The translations under genes were made by a program, and so were the position numbers. Below the pieces are notes generated by a model that did no database searches, was not told the origin of the DNA, and was given only the letters and a program-made list of their open reading frames with translations. Positions 4,775 to 39,138 of a stretch of DNA of 39,138 nucleotides are shown here, one piece after another; the stretch's first letter is position 1, and every line of letters starts with the position of its first letter. The stretch spans positions 1 through 39,138 of the IMG/VR virus record IMGVR_UViG_3300044815_000078; one strand, 5' to 3'. Origin of the DNA: a virus.

Positions 4775-6202
4775 TCAGATCCAATCGGTTTGGGCGACGT
4801 CGAGGAGGGTCGCACCCGCGCCCATGTAGGTGGCGATGTCCGCGAGCGTGCCGGTGGGGCCGATGTAGTTCGCGATGTCCAGCAAGGTGTAGCCGCGGGC
4901 CTGCAGCACCGCCGCCCACCCGTCGGTCTCCGCGTACTCGATCGTGATGAGCCGGCGGGGGTCGGAGCCGTCCTGGCTGAACCGCTTCTCGGTCACCCGG
5001 TCCACGGCCAGGTAGGCGTCGATGCCGTCATACGGGTCCCCGCTGACGGTGCTCACGCCGGGTTGGCGAATCTGGACGGTGCCCTCGGTGGCGTCGGCCA
5101 GCAGGGCCATCAGGTTGTCGCGGGAACTGGTCGTGTCGGTGAACAGCTCGTAGCTGCCCTCGGCCTGACCCATCTGCCCGGTGATCACGATGTTGCGCCC
5201 GCCGACGTTGAACCGTGCCGAGCTGGACGGGGCGTAGGTCTTGTCCCCCACGGCGGTCACGACGACCTCGGCCGCCGCCCCGGTGATCGCGTCGGTCAGG
5301 GCGACCTTCCCGCCCGGCAGGGTGTACGTCGTCGTGGCCGTGACGTACTCGGCCTGACCCTCGACGACAGCCACGTACCGCACCGGCACCCCGAACGGGA
5401 GCTCGGCGTCGACCACCACGTACGCCGCGTCGATCGTCGCGTCCGTCGTGGCCCCGCGGACCAGGGTCCGGACGCCCGCCACTTCCCGGTAGACGGCAAC
5501 GCTGTCACCGATCGTCAGCCCGCTGACCGTGATCAGCGCCCGGTGCGGGAAGACGTCCTGCTCGATGGTGGAGATTGTCGCCGCAGGCTTGAGCGCGAGG
5601 ACGGTCGCCCGGCTGATCGCCGCCGCGCCGCCGGTCACGGTCAGGGCGGCCGAGATGATGTCGGCCTCGGCCGTCTCGACCTTCGTGTAGACCGCCAGCG
5701 TCGCGTCGTCGCCGGTCGTAACCGAGGAGAACGCCGCAGCCGTATAGCCGGACGGGACCGTGATCGAGGTCGCGTCGTCCTGCTTCCACGCCGCGATCGT
5801 CACCGCCTGGCCTGGGCCGGGGACGTCGAGGGCCGGATAGGTGACGTTCTGCGCGGAGGCGTTGAGGAGACCGGCCGACACCGAGGCGGTCAGCGCGTCC
5901 GGGCTGACGCCGCGGTGAGCAAGGATCACCGCCTGTGTGTCGGCGAGGGCCACCCCGCCCGCGAAGGCGACGGTTGGGGCTGTGACGCCGGCCGCATACC
6001 ACCGGCCGAAGATCGCCAGGTTTCCCGAGGTGGCGATCGGCGCCCAGCCGGTCGGGGTGCTGACGGTGCCCGCCCCGCTGTTGCGGATCGCCGCGGTCAG
6101 TACCAGGAGGTCACCGGTCACAAGCCCCGTCGGCAGGGCGGGCACGACTGAGGCGTTGACCCCTGCTGCGACCGCGCCGGCACCGACGTAAGTGATCGTC
6201 AT
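4775..6202 (-). CDS. Minor tail protein (distal tail / tail-tip component)
   Basis: The 475-aa protein overlaps the tape-measure stop codon (ATGA), the position of the distal tail protein. Residues 1-205 form a beta-rich domain (GWAPIATSGNLAIFGRWYAA, ALADTQAVILAHRGV) resembling lectin/jelly-roll modules that package aqueous or carbohydrate ligands. Residues 215-475 contain further strands and a C-terminal segment with two short repeats (TLLDIANYIGPTGTLADIAT, TYMGAGATLLDVAQ) reminiscent of LysM-like spacing. No catalytic motif is seen. It probably joins the tail tube to the hub. Confidence 0.8.
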   Translation of the reverse strand: MTITYVGAGAVAAGVNASVVPALPTGLVTGDLLVLTAAIRNSGAGTVSTPTGWAPIATSGNLAIFGRWYAAGVTAPTVAFAGGVALADTQAVILAHRGVSPDALTASVSAGLLNASAQNVTYPALDVPGPGQAVTIAAWKQDDATSITVPSGYTAAAFSSVTTGDDATLAVYTKVETAEADIISAALTVTGGAAAISRATVLALKPAATISTIEQDVFPHRALITVSGLTIGDSVAVYREVAGVRTLVRGATTDATIDAAYVVVDAELPFGVPVRYVAVVEGQAEYVTATTTYTLPGGKVALTDAITGAAAEVVVTAVGDKTYAPSSSARFNVGGRNIVITGQMGQAEGSYELFTDTTSSRDNLMALLADATEGTVQIRQPGVSTVSGDPYDGIDAYLAVDRVTEKRFSQDGSDPRRLITIEYAETDGWAAVLQARGYTLLDIANYIGPTGTLADIATYMGAGATLLDVAQTDWI

Positions 6203-8357: not shown

Positions 8358-8572
8358 TACCCCTCCAATGCCGCCGGGGCTCCGGTCCGCCTGCGCTGCT
8401 CTTCGATCAGTTCCTGGAGGTACATGACGTCCTGTGCCTCCCAGACCTCGATCAGGTCCCGGAACGACACCTGCCAGCCGAGCAGGGCCGCCGCGTTGGC
8501 GCCGAGCGTGATCAGGCCTCGGCGGACGGAGTCCGGTTCGTAGGGTCCAGCTCGGTGTCCTCGTCCTCCGGG
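8357..8572 (-). CDS. Tail assembly chaperone extension (T-type, made by -1 frameshift)
   Basis: This frame opens after an in-frame TGA at 8573-8575 and runs to TAG at 8357-8359. It has no good start codon near its beginning. It is offset by -1 relative to the upstream chaperone gene, which stops at 8512, so the two frames overlap by about 60 bases. The encoded peptide (LITLGANAAALLGWQVSFRD, then a helical tail ending in EEQRRRTGAPAALEG) looks like the helical T domain of G/GT tail chaperones. The G-T fusion would guide tape-measure folding. I see no canonical slippery heptamer; GGACCCT in 8541-8550 is the best candidate. Confidence 0.6.
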   Translation of the reverse strand, partial: PGGRGHRAGPYEPDSVRRGLITLGANAAALLGWQVSFRDLIEVWEAQDVMYLQELIEEQRRRTGAPAALEG

Positions 8573-8796
8573 TCACTGGCCTCGACGCACACGGCGTCGA
8601 ACGCCGGCCACGACAGCTTCGTCAGGCCCTGACGGCGGCTGGCCGTCCAGGCGATGAAACGGGTCATCGTGATCCGCTTGCCAGGGTCGTAAAAGTCCTG
8701 GGCCTCGTACTTGGCGACGTCGCGCTGATCAGCGACGACGGTCCACTTCTCGCCGCCATCCATCTCGACGGAGGCGCGGATCTGCATTGCCGGCAT
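8512..8796 (-). CDS. Tail assembly chaperone (G-type)
   Basis: The 94-aa protein starts at ATG 8794-8796, just after the major tail gene. It begins with a beta-rich part (MQIRASVEMDGGEKWTVVAD), followed by KYEAQDFYDPGKRITMTRFI and an acidic C-terminus (EASDPEDEDTELDPTN). The length, the acidic end and the overlap with a second open frame in the -1 register match gpG of G/GT systems. It should act during tail tube assembly with the tape measure and would be absent from the virion. Confidence 0.8.
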   Translation of the reverse strand: MPAMQIRASVEMDGGEKWTVVADQRDVAKYEAQDFYDPGKRITMTRFIAWTASRRQGLTKLSWPAFDAVCVEASDPEDEDTELDPTNRTPSAEA

Positions 8797-8818
8797 CGGC
8801 GGCCTGCCCTTCTCGGCG

Positions 8819-9235
8819 TTACGCGGACTGAGTGAAGACCGGCGCGCCGATCACGGGGATCGTCACGTCGAAGGTGCGGAAGTTGCCCTGCTCGCCGCCG
8901 AACGGGATCTGCGTCGGGCGGATCGTGAACGTCGCCTTGTCCTGCCCGGTCCCAGCCTTGGGCTGGTAGACCACGTCCAGGTCGGCGCCCGCGGCGGCAG
9001 CGGTACGCAGGGCGGCGCCGAGGCTGAGCGCGCCGAAGTCCTGCACGCCCGCGAGTTCGAGCTCCCACACCGGGCTGTCGGTGTCGGTGATCGTGCCGTC
9101 CGGCACCATCGTGCGCAGCGTCTGGGTGTCCTGGTCCGGCACGAGCCGGATCTTCGTGGCCTGGTTGGCGTAGTCGTCCTCGTCGACCGTGAACACGGCG
9201 TTCTTGATGACGTGGGCCCGCGCGTAAGCGACCAT
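8819..9235 (-). CDS. Major tail (tube) protein
   Basis: The 138-aa protein starts at ATG 9233-9235. Sequence and length fit a compact tail tube subunit: MVAYARAHVIKNAVFTVDED, a central WELELAGVQDFGA, then IRPTQIPFGGEQGNFRTFDV with a strand-rich end. The pattern 'F.....P......T' near the C-terminus is common in actinophage major tail proteins. It lies between the terminator-like gene and the chaperones, the canonical place. No C-terminal Ig-like extension is present. Confidence 0.85.
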   Translation of the reverse strand: MVAYARAHVIKNAVFTVDEDDYANQATKIRLVPDQDTQTLRTMVPDGTITDTDSPVWELELAGVQDFGALSLGAALRTAAAAGADLDVVYQPKAGTGQDKATFTIRPTQIPFGGEQGNFRTFDVTIPVIGAPVFTQSA

Positions 9236-21692: not shown

Positions 21693-21724
21693 TTAGTTCG
21701 CTAGATAGTTCGCAGATAGTTCGC
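21693..21724 (+). repeat. Iteron block A (three TAGTTCGC copies, spacing 12 and 11)
   Basis: TAGTTCGC occurs at 21694-21701, 21706-21713 and 21717-21724. Spacing is 12 then 11 bp, close to a helical turn. The outermost copy is preceded by GGGGT, as is its mirror copy at 22075-22082. Confidence 0.9.
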
Positions 21725-21783
21725 AGTGGCCTCTGGGTGCTCGGCAGGGGGTCTGAGCAGCGGCTTTGCTACCCGCCGTCGAC

Positions 21784-21810
21784 TTAGTTCGCTTAGTTCG
21801 CTTAGTTCGC
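21784..21810 (+). repeat. Iteron block B (three tandem TTAGTTCGC, period 9)
   Basis: Three perfect head-to-tail copies of TTAGTTCGC at 21784-21792, 21793-21801 and 21802-21810. The period of 9 is shorter than a helical turn, so neighbouring copies face different sides of the helix, unlike blocks A and D. Confidence 0.92.
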
Positions 21811-21879
21811 AGGCACCAGAGATTGGGGTAGCTAGTTCCTGGTGCTCTAACAGAGAGGATCAAGGCCAGGAGCTGGGAG

Positions 21880-21917
21880 TATTTATAGATATCTATATTT
21901 TCTATTACGTGTATAGG
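21880..21917. other. AT-rich element, candidate DNA unwinding region
   Basis: About 38 bases composed almost only of A and T (TATTTATAGATATCTATATT and the following TTCTATTACGTGTATA) inside a GC-rich genome. It contains the 14-bp palindrome TATAGATATCTATA (21884-21897). It lies at the symmetry centre of the iterons. It might also supply -10 elements for the leftward gene at 21583. Confidence 0.8.
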
Positions 21918-21965
21918 GGAAGCCGCGTACTCCTCCTCGCCCTCCTCGTCTCTGACCCCACCCCC

Positions 21966-21992
21966 GCGAACTAAGCGAACTAAGCGAACTAA
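21966..21992 (-). repeat. Iteron block C (three tandem inverted copies, period 9)
   Basis: GCGAACTAA, the reverse complement of TTAGTTCGC, repeats perfectly at 21966-21974, 21975-21983 and 21984-21992. It is the mirror image of block B about 21888. Confidence 0.92.
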
Positions 21993-22051
21993 CCTCGACC
22001 TGAGGCGAGTTTCCGCAGCTCACAGTGGGTCTCCTTGGGGTTTCGGGGGTT

Positions 22052-22083
22052 GCGAACTATCTGCGAACTAACCTGCGAACTAA
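22052..22083 (-). repeat. Iteron block D (three inverted copies, spacing 11 and 12)
   Basis: GCGAACTA occurs at 22052-22059, 22063-22070 and 22075-22082, mirroring block A exactly. The outer copy contains the replicase TAG stop, tying origin and gene together. Confidence 0.9.
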
Positions 22084-24461
22084 CCCCGCGCACGGCGGTA
22101 GTAGGTCGCCGGCCGCCCGCCGTTGGGTCCGCGGTACGGGTACGCCTCGTAGTCACCGCGGGCGAGCAGCTTGTCGAACAGGGCATCGAGTTCCTTCGCG
22201 GTCTTGTGCCGCTGGAACAGCTCGACCGAGACCGCCTTTCGGCCCTGACCCTCTTCGCGTTCGTTCAGGTACTCCATGAGGCGACCGAGGTCTTTGTCGC
22301 CGGCCTCGGACCCGAACACGTACCGGGTGCTGTCCTCGATGTAGTCCCACGCGGCGAGTGCTGCCTTGACGTGCCGTTCGCTGATCGTCAGCTCACCGTC
22401 GAGCAGCGCGTAGGTCAGCGACATACGGGCTGTGTTGGCGTGCCAGCGGGCGAGCAGGGACTTGACCGGGGATTCGGACTTGTCCTTGCGCCGCTCGTCG
22501 AACCGGCGGTGGTATTCGGCGATCCACAACTTCCGTCCGGCGTCGTCACGGAACAGCTCACCCTTGCCCTCGGATGCCTTATGCAGGGTGGCGCGGGTTT
22601 CGTACAGCCGGTCCCCGAACGCCTTCAGTTCGCTGCTGGACGGCGAGGAGCCCTCGGGCAGGGTCTTGCTCATCCGGGAGCAGACGAGCATGAACCGGTT
22701 GGCGAGCCCGTTGGCCACGTCGGTGCTGCTGAGCTTGGTGACGAGCTCGGCGGGGGTGATCTGCGGGGTGATGACGATGTGGCTGCCGGTCGACTTCACT
22801 GGTGAGCCCGAGGTCATCGATTGCAGGACCATGTCGTCGTACGCCTCGCGGAGCGTCGCCGACAGGCTGTTTCCGTCTCTGCGGGACTTCTCCAGGACGC
22901 TCACGAACTCCGGGGCGTCGACCCAGAGGCGCTTGTCGTGGACGCCTTCGTCGAAGCCCTGCTCGTTCGGGTCGTCGCCGCTGGCGTCCCGAACAGCCTT
23001 GATGAGTCCCTCACCGGTGGAGAGCCCGCTGGCGAACTGGAACGTGTTGCTGCCGAACTTGATCCAGAAACCTCGGGTCACGGATACGGCGGTTCCCTTA
23101 GCGCCGGTCGAGCTGTCGCCGCAGATCAGGGGCCACACCTTGGGGGTGTGGCGCGTGTTGCCGCCAGCGACGAAGTAGCCGGGCCCGTACCAGCATCCGA
23201 CGGTGGCCAGAAACAGGTGCAGAACGGCAGGTGGGTCCGCTTCGGTGTGCGGGTTCCACATACGCACGAAGTCGCCGGCGAGCCCGTGCAGAGCGGCAGG
23301 CCGCAGCAGCGGCCAGGCCGGACCGGTGGAGATTGCTGGCTTGGGCTCCCCTTCGGTGACGGCTGCCGACTGCGGCGGGGCAGAGGGTCCCTGACGTTCG
23401 CCTCCGTAGCCGTCGCGCCGGAGTTGGGCGGCGGCGTTCCGGTTGTCGCCGTTGTGCTCGAGGATGGCGTACGCCCGGAACTTGGTGATGGACACTTCGG
23501 TTGGGAACTCGGTGGAGGTGGACCACACCCACAGCCCGTCGTAGGTGCCACCGGTGCGCGCGGACCACCCGATGCGCTTGTCGTCGCCGGGTCGCCGCCA
23601 GTAGTCCATGTCGCCGCGCCGGTAGACGAGTGTCCACCCGTGCGGCTGGAGGATGTCGGCCCATCCTGTCTGCCGTGTGTAGGCGTCGCCGGGTCGTTCG
23701 GTGCCATCTGAGGTCGGCTGGGCCGGTTCGCGGGGTGCGATCGGCTCTGGCTCGGGCATCTCGTCGAGCACGGCGTGGATGGCGGCGAACAGCGCCACCC
23801 GTTCATCCCAGGTGATCGTTTCGATGCGCCCCGGGACGCTGTTCTTGCTGAACGTCCAGGGCAGCCCTGACTGGTGTACGCGCCCGTGGCTGGGTGCGAC
23901 GACGACGAATCCGCCCTCACCGCGGGTCTCGGCGAGCACATATGGTCGGGGCTGGTTCGGGGACTTCTTAAGCAGTTCGTGGTCGGTGGCGGTCAGTTCC
24001 TCGGACTTCTTCGGTCGGGAGGCGATCTTGGTGTTGCCGGGGACCGCTTTACCGTCGAGTCGATAGATGAAGTGGATCCCGCCGGAGGGTGTGTGTTCGG
24101 CGTAGCCGCTGACAAGCCGCTTCCAGACCTCGTGGACTCCGGCGGCCTTGAGCGCCGGGATGAGTCGGTCGCGGGCGCCCTCGTTGACAGCGCGGCCCTC
24201 GAGCTCGAACATCTCGACGTTGCCGGAGATGGCACCCATGATGACGCCAACCCCGGTTCGACTGGCGCCGTCGTACCACTCGCCGATCTTTTGGGCGGTC
24301 GGCTGTTCGAGCTTGTACGCCTCCCATCCCTTGAGGTCGGGACGCTTCTCGCCGTTCTGCTTGACGGGGACGACGGAGAAACCGGCGGCGTGCCACCGGT
24401 AGGCGGCTTCCCGGACGTCCTCAGCCGTGAACGCGTCGGTGTCGTTGAGGACGACGGTCAC
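22080..24461 (-). CDS. Bifunctional primase-polymerase / DUF3987-type helicase replicase
   Basis: The 793-aa protein starts at GTG overlapping the previous stop (GTGA). Residues 8-235 form a prim-pol domain: FSVVPVKQNGEKRPDLKGWE, VGVIMGAISGNVEMFELEGR (E86, E88 where many family members have DxD), HTPSGGIHFIYRLDGK (H130) and 'ETRGEGGFVVVAPSHGRVH'. A linker domain follows (WRRPGDDKRIGWSARTGG, 'KFRAYAILEHNGD'). Residues 385-720 match DUF3987-type helicase-like modules: WPLICGDSSTGAKGTA (atypical P-loop), 'LWVDAPEFVSVLEKSRRDGN', 'TPAELVTKLSSTDVANGLAN'. It should initiate and prime replication at the adjacent origin. Confidence 0.88.
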   Translation of the reverse strand: MTVVLNDTDAFTAEDVREAAYRWHAAGFSVVPVKQNGEKRPDLKGWEAYKLEQPTAQKIGEWYDGASRTGVGVIMGAISGNVEMFELEGRAVNEGARDRLIPALKAAGVHEVWKRLVSGYAEHTPSGGIHFIYRLDGKAVPGNTKIASRPKKSEELTATDHELLKKSPNQPRPYVLAETRGEGGFVVVAPSHGRVHQSGLPWTFSKNSVPGRIETITWDERVALFAAIHAVLDEMPEPEPIAPREPAQPTSDGTERPGDAYTRQTGWADILQPHGWTLVYRRGDMDYWRRPGDDKRIGWSARTGGTYDGLWVWSTSTEFPTEVSITKFRAYAILEHNGDNRNAAAQLRRDGYGGERQGPSAPPQSAAVTEGEPKPAISTGPAWPLLRPAALHGLAGDFVRMWNPHTEADPPAVLHLFLATVGCWYGPGYFVAGGNTRHTPKVWPLICGDSSTGAKGTAVSVTRGFWIKFGSNTFQFASGLSTGEGLIKAVRDASGDDPNEQGFDEGVHDKRLWVDAPEFVSVLEKSRRDGNSLSATLREAYDDMVLQSMTSGSPVKSTGSHIVITPQITPAELVTKLSSTDVANGLANRFMLVCSRMSKTLPEGSSPSSSELKAFGDRLYETRATLHKASEGKGELFRDDAGRKLWIAEYHRRFDERRKDKSESPVKSLLARWHANTARMSLTYALLDGELTISERHVKAALAAWDYIEDSTRYVFGSEAGDKDLGRLMEYLNEREEGQGRKAVSVELFQRHKTAKELDALFDKLLARGDYEAYPYRGPNGGRPATYYRRARG

Positions 24462-25177
24462 AGAACACCGCCGAGTGGCCCCCGGAACGCCTGCTCGGCG
24501 GCTTCTTCTTTCGTGGGAAGTCCGGCGGCCGTGAGCACGTCGGCGAGGCTGGCCTCGGTGGTGGTGTTGCCGTGCTCGTCGATGACCACGACCGGGCCGA
24601 AAGCGTCGGCCATCCCGGAGTTGACCAGGGCGCGCCGGAGCAGGCCCCTGGTGTTGTCTATGAACTCTTTCGACCAGGGGCCTTCGAGCATGGCGCGCAT
24701 GGCGAAGCTCCGGCCGGCGAGCGGCAGGTACTGCTTGCCCCCTTCGTCGTTGACGAGCCATTCGAGTTCGGCGACGTCCCCGGTGTCCTCTTCGAGGTCG
24801 TCGAGGAACATGGCGTAGAGGTCGTCGTGGCCCATGCCGGACACCCGGAGGATGTCGGTGAGGTTCATCCAGAAGTCGTCGTCGGCGTCGTTGACGAACA
24901 GGGGCCGCACGGTGCCGAACCCGTACCAGTCGCGCTCGCAGGTGACGATGACCGGCCAGCAGTTCCGACTTTCGCAGAAGTTGGCGATCTGGAAGGGCTG
25001 GTCCGCGTCGATGGTGGTCAGGTCGCCGCGGTCGAGCTGCCGGTTGGTGCGGTCGCGGACGCTGCCCGCGTAGTCGGCGGGGGTGGCGATGGCCCGCCCG
25101 GTGGTGGGGGAGCTGGTATGAGTCGTTTCGTCGGTGCTGTCATCGGATACCGCCGCCACGGTGTTATCAGGTACCAT
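24458..25177 (-). CDS. Unknown protein upstream of the replicase (possible Bro-N-like fold)
   Basis: The 239-aa protein has a polar, Thr/Ser-rich N-terminus of about 60 residues, then a conserved-looking core: 'FQIANFCESRNCWPVIVTCE', 'DFWMNLTDILRVSGMGHDD', 'EWLVNDEGGKQYLPLAGRSF' and 'SKEFIDNTRGLLRRALV'. The order (FW.N..DI, then a linker, then 'F...FI..T...LRR') vaguely recalls phage Bro-N antirepressor domains, but this is weak. It ends in an Ala/Glu tail. Coupling to the replicase implies a replication or regulatory role. Confidence 0.72.
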   Translation of the reverse strand: MVPDNTVAAVSDDSTDETTHTSSPTTGRAIATPADYAGSVRDRTNRQLDRGDLTTIDADQPFQIANFCESRNCWPVIVTCERDWYGFGTVRPLFVNDADDDFWMNLTDILRVSGMGHDDLYAMFLDDLEEDTGDVAELEWLVNDEGGKQYLPLAGRSFAMRAMLEGPWSKEFIDNTRGLLRRALVNSGMADAFGPVVVIDEHGNTTTEASLADVLTAAGLPTKEEAAEQAFRGPLGGVL

Positions 25178-29729: not shown

Positions 29730-30509
29730 CTACTCCTCTGCGGGCAGCTCGTAGGCGATCTCGTACTGCTGGCTCGCCTTGACCATCACGGTCGCCTCGA
29801 TCGCCTGGTTGTCGTCGGTGTAGACGACCCGGAACTGTCGCAGCACGGGCATGTCCTCGGGCAGCTTCAGGGCGATGAACTCCGCCACGGTCGCCAGACG
29901 GGCGCCGACCTGGTCAACGGCGTGCCGCAACGGGAGGCTGAGCTCGGCGAGCACCGCCGGGCTCCCGCCCTTGATCTTCCGGTTTTCTGCCAGTCGGGTG
30001 CCGCGGGCGACGTCGGTCCGGTAGTGGTTCCACACCAACTCGGCTGGCTCCCCATCGAGCAGCAGCAACTGGTGGCGGACCACCACCGGCGTTCCTCGCT
30101 CGATACCGAACGCTGACGCCACCTGGGCCGTGGCGGGCTGTTCGCCGACTGAGATGAGTTCCGTCGACGCGGTCCGGCCGCGTGCGGCGTGGTCGGTCAT
30201 CCACGGGTACGGCTCACCTGCTGGCGCTGGCCTCGGGTAGTGACTGGCGCGGACCACGATGGGGCGGCGTCCAGTCACGTAGGTTCCGCTGCCCTTGGTC
30301 GACTCGACGAACCGTTCCGCGCGGAGGATCGCCATGGCGCGCTGGACAGTCTTGTCGGTGACGCCGTACTGGGCCATGAGCGCGACCACGGTCGGCATAC
30401 GGTCGCCAGGTCGGAGGTCGCCGGACAGGATCAGGGCGCGCAGGTTGGCGGCGATCTGTTGCTGCCGGTCCCGAACGCCGTCGTCGGGGGCACGGTCGGG
30501 CTGGCTCAC
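29730..30509 (-). CDS. GntR/HutC-type regulator with UTRA domain
   Basis: The 259-aa protein starts at GTG overlapping the upstream UTRA gene (GTGA). The N-terminal wHTH (about 12-80) reads RQQQIAANLRALILSGDLRP, 'MPTVVALMAQYGVTDKTVQR', AMAILRAERFVESTKGSGTY. The UTRA effector domain (about 105-255) has 'PVVVRHQLLLLDGEPAELVW', NHYRTDVARGTRLAENRKIK and 'FRVVYTDDNQAIEATVMVKA'. It resembles KorSA/TraR-type regulators of actinobacterial plasmids and AICEs. It probably binds the GTAC-type palindrome at 31161-31179. Confidence 0.88.
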   Translation of the reverse strand: MSQPDRAPDDGVRDRQQQIAANLRALILSGDLRPGDRMPTVVALMAQYGVTDKTVQRAMAILRAERFVESTKGSGTYVTGRRPIVVRASHYPRPAPAGEPYPWMTDHAARGRTASTELISVGEQPATAQVASAFGIERGTPVVVRHQLLLLDGEPAELVWNHYRTDVARGTRLAENRKIKGGSPAVLAELSLPLRHAVDQVGARLATVAEFIALKLPEDMPVLRQFRVVYTDDNQAIEATVMVKASQQYEIAYELPAEE

Positions 30510-31045
30510 TGTGCGCCGTTCCGTGTGCGGTACGACAGGGGTTCGGTGCGGGCGGCGACCATCCGGTTGACGGCGTACTCGACCGGCGTGCCGGCGGTGT
30601 CGCGGCTGACCCGTGCAAGCACGATCAGCGGCTCGTCGGCAGGGATGCCGAGCAGGTCGGCCTCTTCGGGGTCGGGACGTCGTGCGGTGATCTGCTCGTC
30701 GGCGGTGTCGATTCCATGGCCGAGGCCGACCAAGACCCGAACGGCTCCGCCCTTGATCTTCGCGTTCCCGGCGATTGGCGTGCCGTCGACGAGATTGGCG
30801 GGGTAGTACGAGTCGGCGAGCTCGACAGGCTGACCGTCGGCGAGGATGAGGCGCCTACGGACCACGGCCGCGGCGGTGTCGTCCAGCTCGAGCCGGTCGC
30901 GTACCTCCTGGGACATGCGCCCCCGCTCGACACCGAGGAGGGTCTGCGACCCTGCCTTGCCTTGACGTGCAGCGTCGGCCTTCCAGGCGTCGCTGTGGTG
31001 CGGCGTGATGTATGGGGCCGAGGTGCTGCTGTCCTGCTCGCGCAT
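30506..31045 (-). CDS. UTRA-only GntR-like protein (no DNA-binding domain)
   Basis: The 179-aa protein has AGGAGGAGG before ATG. It begins with the GntR linker (SAPYITPHHSDAWKADAARQ, 'SQTLLGVERGRMSQEVRDRL') followed by the UTRA fold (VVRRRLILADGQPVELADSY, 'PANLVDGTPIAGNAKIKGGA', VEYAVNRMVAARTEPLSYRT). The wHTH that should precede it is absent; upstream is non-coding DNA. It may sense a ligand and modify the neighbouring regulators by heterodimerisation. Confidence 0.82.
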   Translation of the reverse strand: MREQDSSTSAPYITPHHSDAWKADAARQGKAGSQTLLGVERGRMSQEVRDRLELDDTAAAVVRRRLILADGQPVELADSYYPANLVDGTPIAGNAKIKGGAVRVLVGLGHGIDTADEQITARRPDPEEADLLGIPADEPLIVLARVSRDTAGTPVEYAVNRMVAARTEPLSYRTRNGAQ

Positions 31046-36798: not shown

Positions 36799-37830
36799 AT
36801 GAAGCCGAAGCGCAACTGGCGCGACCGAGACTGGATGGACACCGGCGTGACCACGGTGATTTTCGTGATCCCGTCGGGAATCCTGCTCGCCGCGATTGCC
36901 GCCTCGTTCACACACATCAAGGATTGGGCGCTCAACCACGCTCCCAAGGACACGCACGAGTGGCAGGGGTGGGCGTTTGCCTGCATCGTCGAGCTGATCC
37001 CGATCTTCGGGGTGCTGGTGATGTGGAAACTCCGCAAGGCCAACCACGGCCTGACCGTCCCCCGGTTCATCCTCGGCGCCGGGTTCCTGGCATCCATGGC
37101 GGGTCAGGTCGCCTACGCGGGCGGGCTAGACGCGGGTGTTTCGCGGTTGATCGTCGCGGCCGGTCCCTCGTTCGCCGGGCTGGTCCTCACCGAGGTTCTG
37201 CTCTGGCTTGTCCGCACGATCGTCGAGAAGAACACGATCCCGCTGCCACCACCGACCGGTGTCCCCCAGCCGCCGCCGATGGTCATCCCGGCCCCGCCGC
37301 TGGCGAATGTCCCACCGGCCGCCGCCGATCCTGCTCCCCCGGCAACGGAGGAACCCGCTCCCCCCGCTCCCCAGGAGCGGGAGCACGTGTCCCCCTGGTC
37401 CACTCCCCCCGGAGCACCGGCCAGCGCACCCCCTTCTGCTCCCCTCCCAGTCCAGGGGGAGCAGGGGGACAGGCAGCAGGTCATGGACGCTGTCCCCCCT
37501 CAGCCGCTCCCCTCGGTAGACGGGGAGGGCGCAGGGGAGCAGGCACCCTCCGACAGCGACCCGCTCCCCACCCAGTCCGGGGAGCACGCACCCCAGGACA
37601 CCCCCGAGGAGGACGCCACCCCGGAGGGGAGCACGGCCGACGGGGACAGGGGGACAACCGGTCTTGATCCGCTGGACCTCGAGACGTGGGAGCACCACCA
37701 GAACGGCAAGACCAAGAAGGAACTGTCCACCCTCTACGGGGTTCACGAGAAGACGATTCAGCGGCGCCTGAGCAAGGTCCGGGCCGTCATCGAATCCACG
37801 CCGAAGGATGAGGAGCACGCCGATGCGTAG
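36799..37830 (+). CDS. DUF2637-like four-TM protein with C-terminal HTH
   Basis: The 343-aa protein starts at ATG 36799. Residues 10-145 have four hydrophobic segments: TTVIFVIPSGILLAAIAASF, 'WAFACIVELIPIFGVLVMW', FILGAGFLASMAGQVAYAGG and 'PSFAGLVLTEVLLWLVRTI', the DUF2637 plan found in actinobacterial ICEs and plasmids. A Pro/Glu-rich linker (about 150-285) follows. The C-terminus (about 292-335) has LETWEHHQNGKTKKELSTLY and 'GVHEKTIQRRLSKVRAVIES', a clear HTH. A membrane-anchored DNA-binding role, such as tethering the replicating element, is possible but inferred. Confidence 0.82.
   Translation: MKPKRNWRDRDWMDTGVTTVIFVIPSGILLAAIAASFTHIKDWALNHAPKDTHEWQGWAFACIVELIPIFGVLVMWKLRKANHGLTVPRFILGAGFLASMAGQVAYAGGLDAGVSRLIVAAGPSFAGLVLTEVLLWLVRTIVEKNTIPLPPPTGVPQPPPMVIPAPPLANVPPAAADPAPPATEEPAPPAPQEREHVSPWSTPPGAPASAPPSAPLPVQGEQGDRQQVMDAVPPQPLPSVDGEGAGEQAPSDSDPLPTQSGEHAPQDTPEEDATPEGSTADGDRGTTGLDPLDLETWEHHQNGKTKKELSTLYGVHEKTIQRRLSKVRAVIESTPKDEEHADA
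37438..37585. repeat. Three GCTCCCC / GGGGAGC inverted pairs in a coding linker
   Basis: Pairs at 37438-37444/37456-37462, 37506-37512/37534-37540 and 37563-37569/37579-37585. They encode a loose protein repeat (PLPVQGEQ, PLPSVDGEGAGEQ, PLPTQSGEH). They could be duplicated codons or DNA/RNA hairpins. Confidence 0.6.
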
Positions 37831-38973: not shown

Positions 38974-39015
38974 AGCGCCCCATCCGCCCGGCTTGATGCC
39001 GAGGGATGGGGCGCT
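38974..39015. terminator. Bidirectional terminator between rightward and late blocks
   Basis: AGCGCCCCATCC (38974-38985) pairs perfectly with GGATGGGGCGCT (39004-39015). The 18-nt loop contains a nested hairpin CGGC-TTGAT-GCCG (38989-39001). It lies between the ends of convergent transcription units. On the circular map its right arm runs to position 4. Confidence 0.85.
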
Positions 39016-39138
39016 TCTCTGTGTGCAGAACTGTCCCAGCTGGGACAGTTGGTCAGACGCTGGGCAGCGGCTCGGTCGGGCCGTCGCTGCCGTCCGCGTC
39101 GCCGACCGCGGTGTCCAGGCCACCGAGGTTCGCGGCGA
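39012..39138. repeat. Terminal direct repeat, right copy
   Basis: Identical to bases 1-127. It repeats the palindrome (39029-39050) and the end of the coiled-coil gene. It should be trimmed when the sequence is circularised. Confidence 0.95.

Follow-up and report, generated by a model that had tools for sequence, protein, structure and literature searches.

The locus considered here raises the question of what an exactly mirrored array of short repeats does directly 3' of a Prim-Pol gene, and by which protein it is read. It lies in a window of 39,138 nt that constitutes the whole of a complete IMG/VR virus record (IMGVR_UViG_3300044815_000078). A 127-bp exact direct repeat joins the two termini (positions 1-127 are identical to 39012-39138), so that the genome is either a 39,011-bp circle or circularly permuted. 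Since it encodes terminase, portal and capsid genes together with an XRE-type repressor and a tyrosine integrase, we regard it as a temperate tailed phage. No direct DNA similarity to known phages was found; the known relatives of its terminase belong mostly to actinobacterial phages, and because no match to the initiator described below is present in the four longer terminase-relative records examined, the replication module has apparently travelled independently. GntR-UTRA and DUF2637 genes are common in Streptomyces integrative elements, and this genome carries both: a GntR-UTRA regulator adjoins a second, UTRA-only ORF (29730-31045, minus strand), and a DUF2637 ORF occupies 36799-37830 on the plus strand. 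Their presence suggests that the phage is a mosaic with Streptomyces-type integrative elements.

The repeat, TAGTTCGC, occurs 13 times in the window against a chance expectation of 0.43, and none of 100 shuffled sequences reached this count. Twelve copies form the array, while the other, at 4866, is isolated and consistent with chance. Three forward copies (21694, 21706 and 21717; spacing 12 and 11) make up the outer left block (21694-21724, plus strand), which is separated by a 60-bp spacer (21725-21784) from an inner left block (21785-21810, plus strand) of three further forward copies at 21785, 21794 and 21803, spaced 9 and 9. Beyond a 155-bp core (21811-21965) the same order is met in reverse and on the other strand; inverted copies at 21966, 21975 and 21984 (spacing 9 and 9) form the inner right block (21966-21991, minus strand), another 60-bp spacer follows (21992-22051), and copies at 22052, 22063 and 22075 (spacing 11 and 12) form the outer right block (22052-22082, minus strand), the step across each spacer being 68 bp. 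The start positions of all six mirrored pairs sum to 43776, placing the axis exactly at 21888. The initial annotation had described six forward and then six inverted copies equidistant from this base, with outer spacings of 12/11 and 11/12, inner spacings of 9/9 and equal spacers, and in all of this it was correct to the base. It had also reported an in-register TGAGC[A/T]GCGG segment at mirrored positions in the spacers, and indeed TGAGCAGCGG at 21754-21763 on the left is exactly mirrored by CCGCAGCTCA at 22013-22022 on the right; this shared segment might be the site of a second factor or the remnant of an inverted duplication. With the iterons set aside, the two arms agree at 27% of 147 positions, where 26% is expected, and the equal spacing is therefore not carried by overall sequence identity. 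If left-arm intervals are drawn from those found in relatives, the chance that they would exactly copy the right arm is about 3e-4.

Within the core lies the only stretch of the genome with 8 or fewer G+C per 30 bp (21871-21918), which falls to a minimum of 4 in 30 and is a probable unwinding element; it includes a 14-bp palindrome, TATAGATATCTATA, at 21884-21897. That an AT-rich core and a palindrome are present had been recognised at the outset, but neither is centred as was then supposed: the palindrome is centred 2.5 bp, and the AT stretch about 6 bp, to the right of the axis. The left half of the core also contains an inverted repeat, GCACCAG...CTGGTGC (21813-21845, with 7-bp arms 19 bp apart), that has no mirrored counterpart. 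Rfam and tRNA scans produced no match in the array region or elsewhere in the window. GC skew, which had been put forward as a check, placed no origin at 21.9 kb; the detrended curve has its minimum at 17.0 kb and its maximum at 26.8 kb, and gene orientation confounds it.

The gene that ends at the array (22080-24461, minus strand) takes its stop codon from the TAG of the outermost right iteron copy. From Pfam matches, translation and homology, its product is a proposed initiator of 793 aa that joins a Prim-Pol domain, a DUF3987 (MCM-like AAA+) domain and a C-terminal winged helix. We place its start at a GTG at 24461, since similarity to relatives sets in at about residue 108 of the longer ORF and this GTG overlaps the stop of the upstream gene by 4 bp (GTGA). 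The upstream gene is a 239-aa ORF (24458-25177, minus strand) with no family match and no PHROG hit; the two genes are probably on the same transcript and appear to be translationally coupled. Both enzymatic parts of the initiator score above the curated Pfam cut-offs, Prim-Pol (PF09250) with 43.5 bits against 22.8 and DUF3987 (PF13148) with 29.7 bits against 27. Sequence profiles alone gave weak MCM (E 0.05) and MarR matches, and sequence searches of the PDB returned no direct relative of the helicase. An AlphaFold2 model of residues 371-793, built on an alignment with 40 relatives, has a pLDDT of 91, and for its helicase body (residues about 392-718; 22308-23288, minus strand) the best 50 Foldseek matches were all MCM entries. 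The best structural match is human MCM6 (Z 19.5 over 277 residues, rmsd 4.1 A), at a sequence identity to MCM of about 13%. The DUF3987 part is thus predicted to have the MCM ATPase fold. In the same model the C-terminal 70 residues fold as a winged helix (residues about 723-790; 22092-22295, minus strand), the proposed reader of the iterons given this predicted structure and the covariation in relatives described below. We claim no specific winged-helix family for it, because many winged helices match this domain at similar scores.

As a single-sequence query the whole initiator retrieved no relatives in viral or genome contigs. An alignment-based scan, by contrast, yielded 80 viral and 80 genomic loci, and in tblastn the Prim-Pol part was about 40% identical to proteins encoded by Arthrobacter phages and by a Streptomyces plasmid. 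The helicase parts differ between the window and these tblastn relatives, and across the Prim-Pol family the helicase domain recognised by Pfam is DUF3987, D5/SF3, AAA_25 or none. Many loci in the comparison set are in actinobacterial chromosomes. At 127 non-redundant Prim-Pol loci with sufficient sequence, we searched the 590 bp spanning and following the stop codon for five or more exact copies of one 8-mer. Such an array is present 3' of the gene at 60 of the loci; the same threshold is reached by 4 of 1270 random segments and by 11 of 848 control regions, each 3' of another ORF. When at least 80% two-sidedness is also demanded, 52 of the 127 loci qualify, as do 2 of the 848 control regions (Fisher p about 2e-48, which is overstated since the loci share descent), while about half of the Prim-Pol relatives are without an array at the five-copy stringency; one of the named phages, Shambre1, has none 3' of its gene.

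The iteron words vary between groups of relatives (GCAGGGA, TGCGGGGA, AGTGCCGT, TGACGCAT and ACCGATCC), and a common layout recurs: outer block, spacer, inner block, core, inner block, spacer and outer block. Inner blocks are mostly spaced at 8-10 bp, 9 being commonest, and outer blocks at 9-12 bp with peaks at 11-12. The closest parallel to the window is a locus with TGACGCAT iterons (L102), where there are 6+6 sites with inner spacings of 9/9 on both sides and a right outer spacing of 11/12; in the GCAGGGA group an inner spacing of 8/10 is mirrored as 10/8. In the gap 3' of the Prim-Pol gene of the Streptomyces plasmid the iterons are GCAGGGA/TCCCTGC and two-sided; in the Arthrobacter phage Karkharias, copies of AGTGACAC at 9-bp spacing, together with inverted ones, immediately follow the 3' end of the gene. 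Annotated ORF 59 of Karkharias (8496-8837) overlaps this array and may not be a gene. Members of the GCAGGGA group also carry a lone inverted iteron in the left spacer, about +63 to +71 past the stop (in L032 near 4259; likewise in L163, L138 and L176). G+C is lower between the inner blocks than in the gene at 33 of 38 loci, some cores being artificially short owing to a stray site. When left and right arms were exchanged between loci, taking one locus per iteron word, the 17 exactly mirrored pairs of the real arrays exceeded every one of 2000 arm-swapped controls (mean 5.7, maximum 13), and the excess persists without the window (12 pairs; mean 4.3, maximum 10). The mirror is often imperfect in relatives and the iteron number is not always 6+6. 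Mirrored 8-mers in Prim-Pol phages, for which a search had been advocated, do recur as two-sided arrays, but twelve sites are not universal; for the same reason we discarded, as a general rule, a one-to-one match of iterons to the subunits of a six-membered ring.

A separate approach began from the iteron pair and from the helicase. The pattern TAGTTCGCNTAGTTCGC is present in 18 viral contigs of IMG/VR, which a rough estimate puts at about chance level, and none of these has a 12-site array; two of the 18 encode DUF3987 helicases that are 37-40% identical to that of the phage, with the pair at the 3' end of the gene. Independently, among 55 DUF3987 genes obtained by a helicase-only search, TTCGC/GCGAA is the top-ranked pentamer 3' of the gene, and 10 of the 55 loci have at least five copies where 1.3 would be expected. 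One of them (L241) has GCGAA at 2, 64, 74 and 84 followed by TTCGC at 113, 123, 133 and 195, a mirrored array, and another mirrored array is situated 3' of a DUF3987 helicase gene at L231. The two sides of the array at L015 are reversed in orientation relative to the window. At L248, in contrast to the mirrored arrays, eight copies of ACCGCGCA follow a strict 11-bp period on one strand only, 23-107 bp past the end of the DUF3987 ORF.

Which part of the protein might read these words can be approached by comparing their divergence with that of the initiator. Across 50 loci, the similarity of the iterons tracks most closely that of the last 110 aa of the Prim-Pol protein (r 0.70, the highest of the parts). 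The partial correlation for this segment is 0.44 (permutation p 0.002) once the N-terminal and middle parts are controlled for; for those two parts it is 0.08 and -0.19, respectively. The iteron word thus varies together with the C-terminal 110 residues of the initiator and not with the remainder, although common descent that the N-terminal and middle controls do not fully remove could account for part of this signal.

Taken as sequence evidence, these observations make it probable that 21694-22082 is the replication origin of the phage and that it is read by the adjacent 793-aa initiator. The initial annotation had proposed a two-sided iteron origin of a prim-pol phage, and this is strongly supported by the position, arrays and spacing seen in relatives, the covariation of the C-terminus and the predicted MCM-like fold. 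In proposing how such an origin would work, we infer that the initiator binds the iterons, that the core melts first, and that two rings are loaded and both forks leave from here. Each copy of the initiator would bind TAGTTCGC through its C-terminal winged helix, so that copies bound on opposite arms would face each other; the outer and inner triplets of an arm would position one helicase ring, the spacing of the arm setting its geometry. The AT-rich core between the inner triplets would then melt, the two rings would be loaded in opposite orientation to give bidirectional replication, and priming could be provided by the Prim-Pol domain of the same protein. Loading of two helicases in opposite directions would fit the exact two-sided symmetry, and we consider two-ring loading with bidirectional replication from this origin more likely than not, if less secure than the identification of the origin itself.

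An origin that is symmetrical in sequence might nevertheless be used asymmetrically, with both arms binding the initiator, one ring and one fork being produced, and the second arm serving copy-number control or handcuffing. Extra iterons do serve handcuffing in iteron plasmids, the phage has its AT stretch and palindrome to the right of the axis, and one relative that shares TAGTTCGC (L021) has a one-sided array near its gene. Handcuffing tolerates variable spacing, however, and would have no need of the exact mirror that is seen in the 8/10 and 10/8 intervals of the GCAGGGA group and in the arm-swap test, and we consider asymmetric use unlikely.

Explanations that dispense with an origin fare worse. 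The array occupies a 440-bp gap between two genes on the same strand, and the window encodes a GntR-UTRA regulator and an XRE repressor elsewhere, so that the iterons could be operator sites at which the initiator, or some other regulator, holds down transcription through the gap. Yet twelve mirrored sites around the most AT-rich DNA of the genome, and arrays 3' of the initiator in many relatives, would be unexpected of an operator; moreover, no promoter- or terminator-like site was found by a scan of the array region and window, a weak test in a GC-rich genome, and we judge a control region to be very improbable. We attach least weight of all to a partition site or a recent inverted duplication without function. 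Iteron-like arrays can serve as centromeres, but no partition protein was recognised among the scanned ORFs. A duplication would create the mirror in a single step; the arms, however, retain only chance identity outside the iterons and yet have kept their spacing exactly, and mirroring recurs in unrelated iteron families, which argues against a decayed duplication free of constraint. The reading that we prefer remains an origin from which two rings would be loaded in opposite directions.

The structural plan of this origin has a close analogue in the PICIs, in which two iteron sets always flank an AT-rich region immediately 3' of rep (PMC6092414, PMC7581432), an arrangement called unique to PICIs in 2018 (PMC6092414). 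Initiators of PICIs, SaPIs and SCCmec read iterons directly 3' of their own gene through a C-terminal domain (PMC7581432, PMC6092414). In the phage, too, two iteron sets flank an AT-rich region and the array is directly 3' of the initiator gene, the outermost iteron holding its stop codon; the PICI/SaPI helicase is sometimes fused to a primase, as the phage helicase is to Prim-Pol. The predicted winged helix, whose region covaries with the iteron in relatives, is a candidate for C-terminal iteron binding in the phage. The differences are that the phage helicase is of the DUF3987 type, rather than DUF927 or SaPI5-type, and that the phage mirror is exact to the base. A two-sided design is consequently not exceptional, as had been assumed, since PICI/SaPI origins and many of the relatives found here have two iteron sets. 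We rejected the possibility that the whole element is a PICI satellite, as it has its own terminase, portal and major capsid genes, and likewise a classical iteron plasmid origin (Rep_3/RepA with one tandem array), as the array is two-sided and lies beside a Prim-Pol/DUF3987 gene.

Among the SCCmec helicases, Cch resembles MCM, and the C-terminal domain of Cch2 recognises direct repeats downstream of its gene (PMC7581432). Like Cch2, the phage initiator has repeats just downstream of its gene, which its own C-terminal domain would bind, but Cch2 is a D5-type helicase without a fused Prim-Pol, and three iterons are described for it. AICEs, from the same bacterial group, have Prim-Pol (PF09250) replication modules, and the AICE survey does not mention iterons (PMC3218068). 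The archaeal and eukaryotic MCM double hexamer resembles the phage system in the predicted helicase fold and in the notion of an origin that carries two rings head to head, as proposed for the phage; it differs in that no ORC/Cdc6 loader was recognised in the phage and in the low identity given above. The alpha protein of P4, like the phage initiator, unites primase, helicase and short-repeat recognition in one protein, but ori and crr of P4 are two separate sites far apart, while the phage has a single mirrored site. DUF3987 and DUF927 have been predicted to be novel helicases of mobile genetic elements, in proteins whose C-terminal WH domains may recognise origins (PMC5862659). In the openly accessible literature we met with no account of a mirrored origin in Prim-Pol phages.

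The proposed mirrored origin is a widespread, strictly symmetric variant of the known PICI/SaPI-type origin, and the phage array is the cleanest example here of a conserved plan; with it the PICI type reaches beyond PICIs to Prim-Pol phages and integrated elements. A more speculative proposal, which we advance tentatively and would not be surprised to see fail, is that this is a widespread class of phage and mobile-element origin in which one Prim-Pol, MCM-like and winged-helix polypeptide builds two opposed rings on an exactly mirrored site. A spacing code, with tight inner blocks beside the melting core and wider outer ones, would set the geometry of the rings, and the whole might be a loader-free counterpart of MCM double-hexamer assembly, common to initiators with different helicase engines.

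The PICI-type plan, often with exact mirror spacing, occurs in tailed phages, in actinobacterial integrated elements and in one plasmid, and it spans initiators with different helicase types. Many initiator C-termini are now paired with their iterons, and origins in unannotated phages may be sought by inspecting the DNA 3' of the Prim-Pol/helicase gene. For the biology of these elements, the arrangement offers a simple, testable model in which replicative helicase rings could be set on the DNA in opposite directions with no separate loader.
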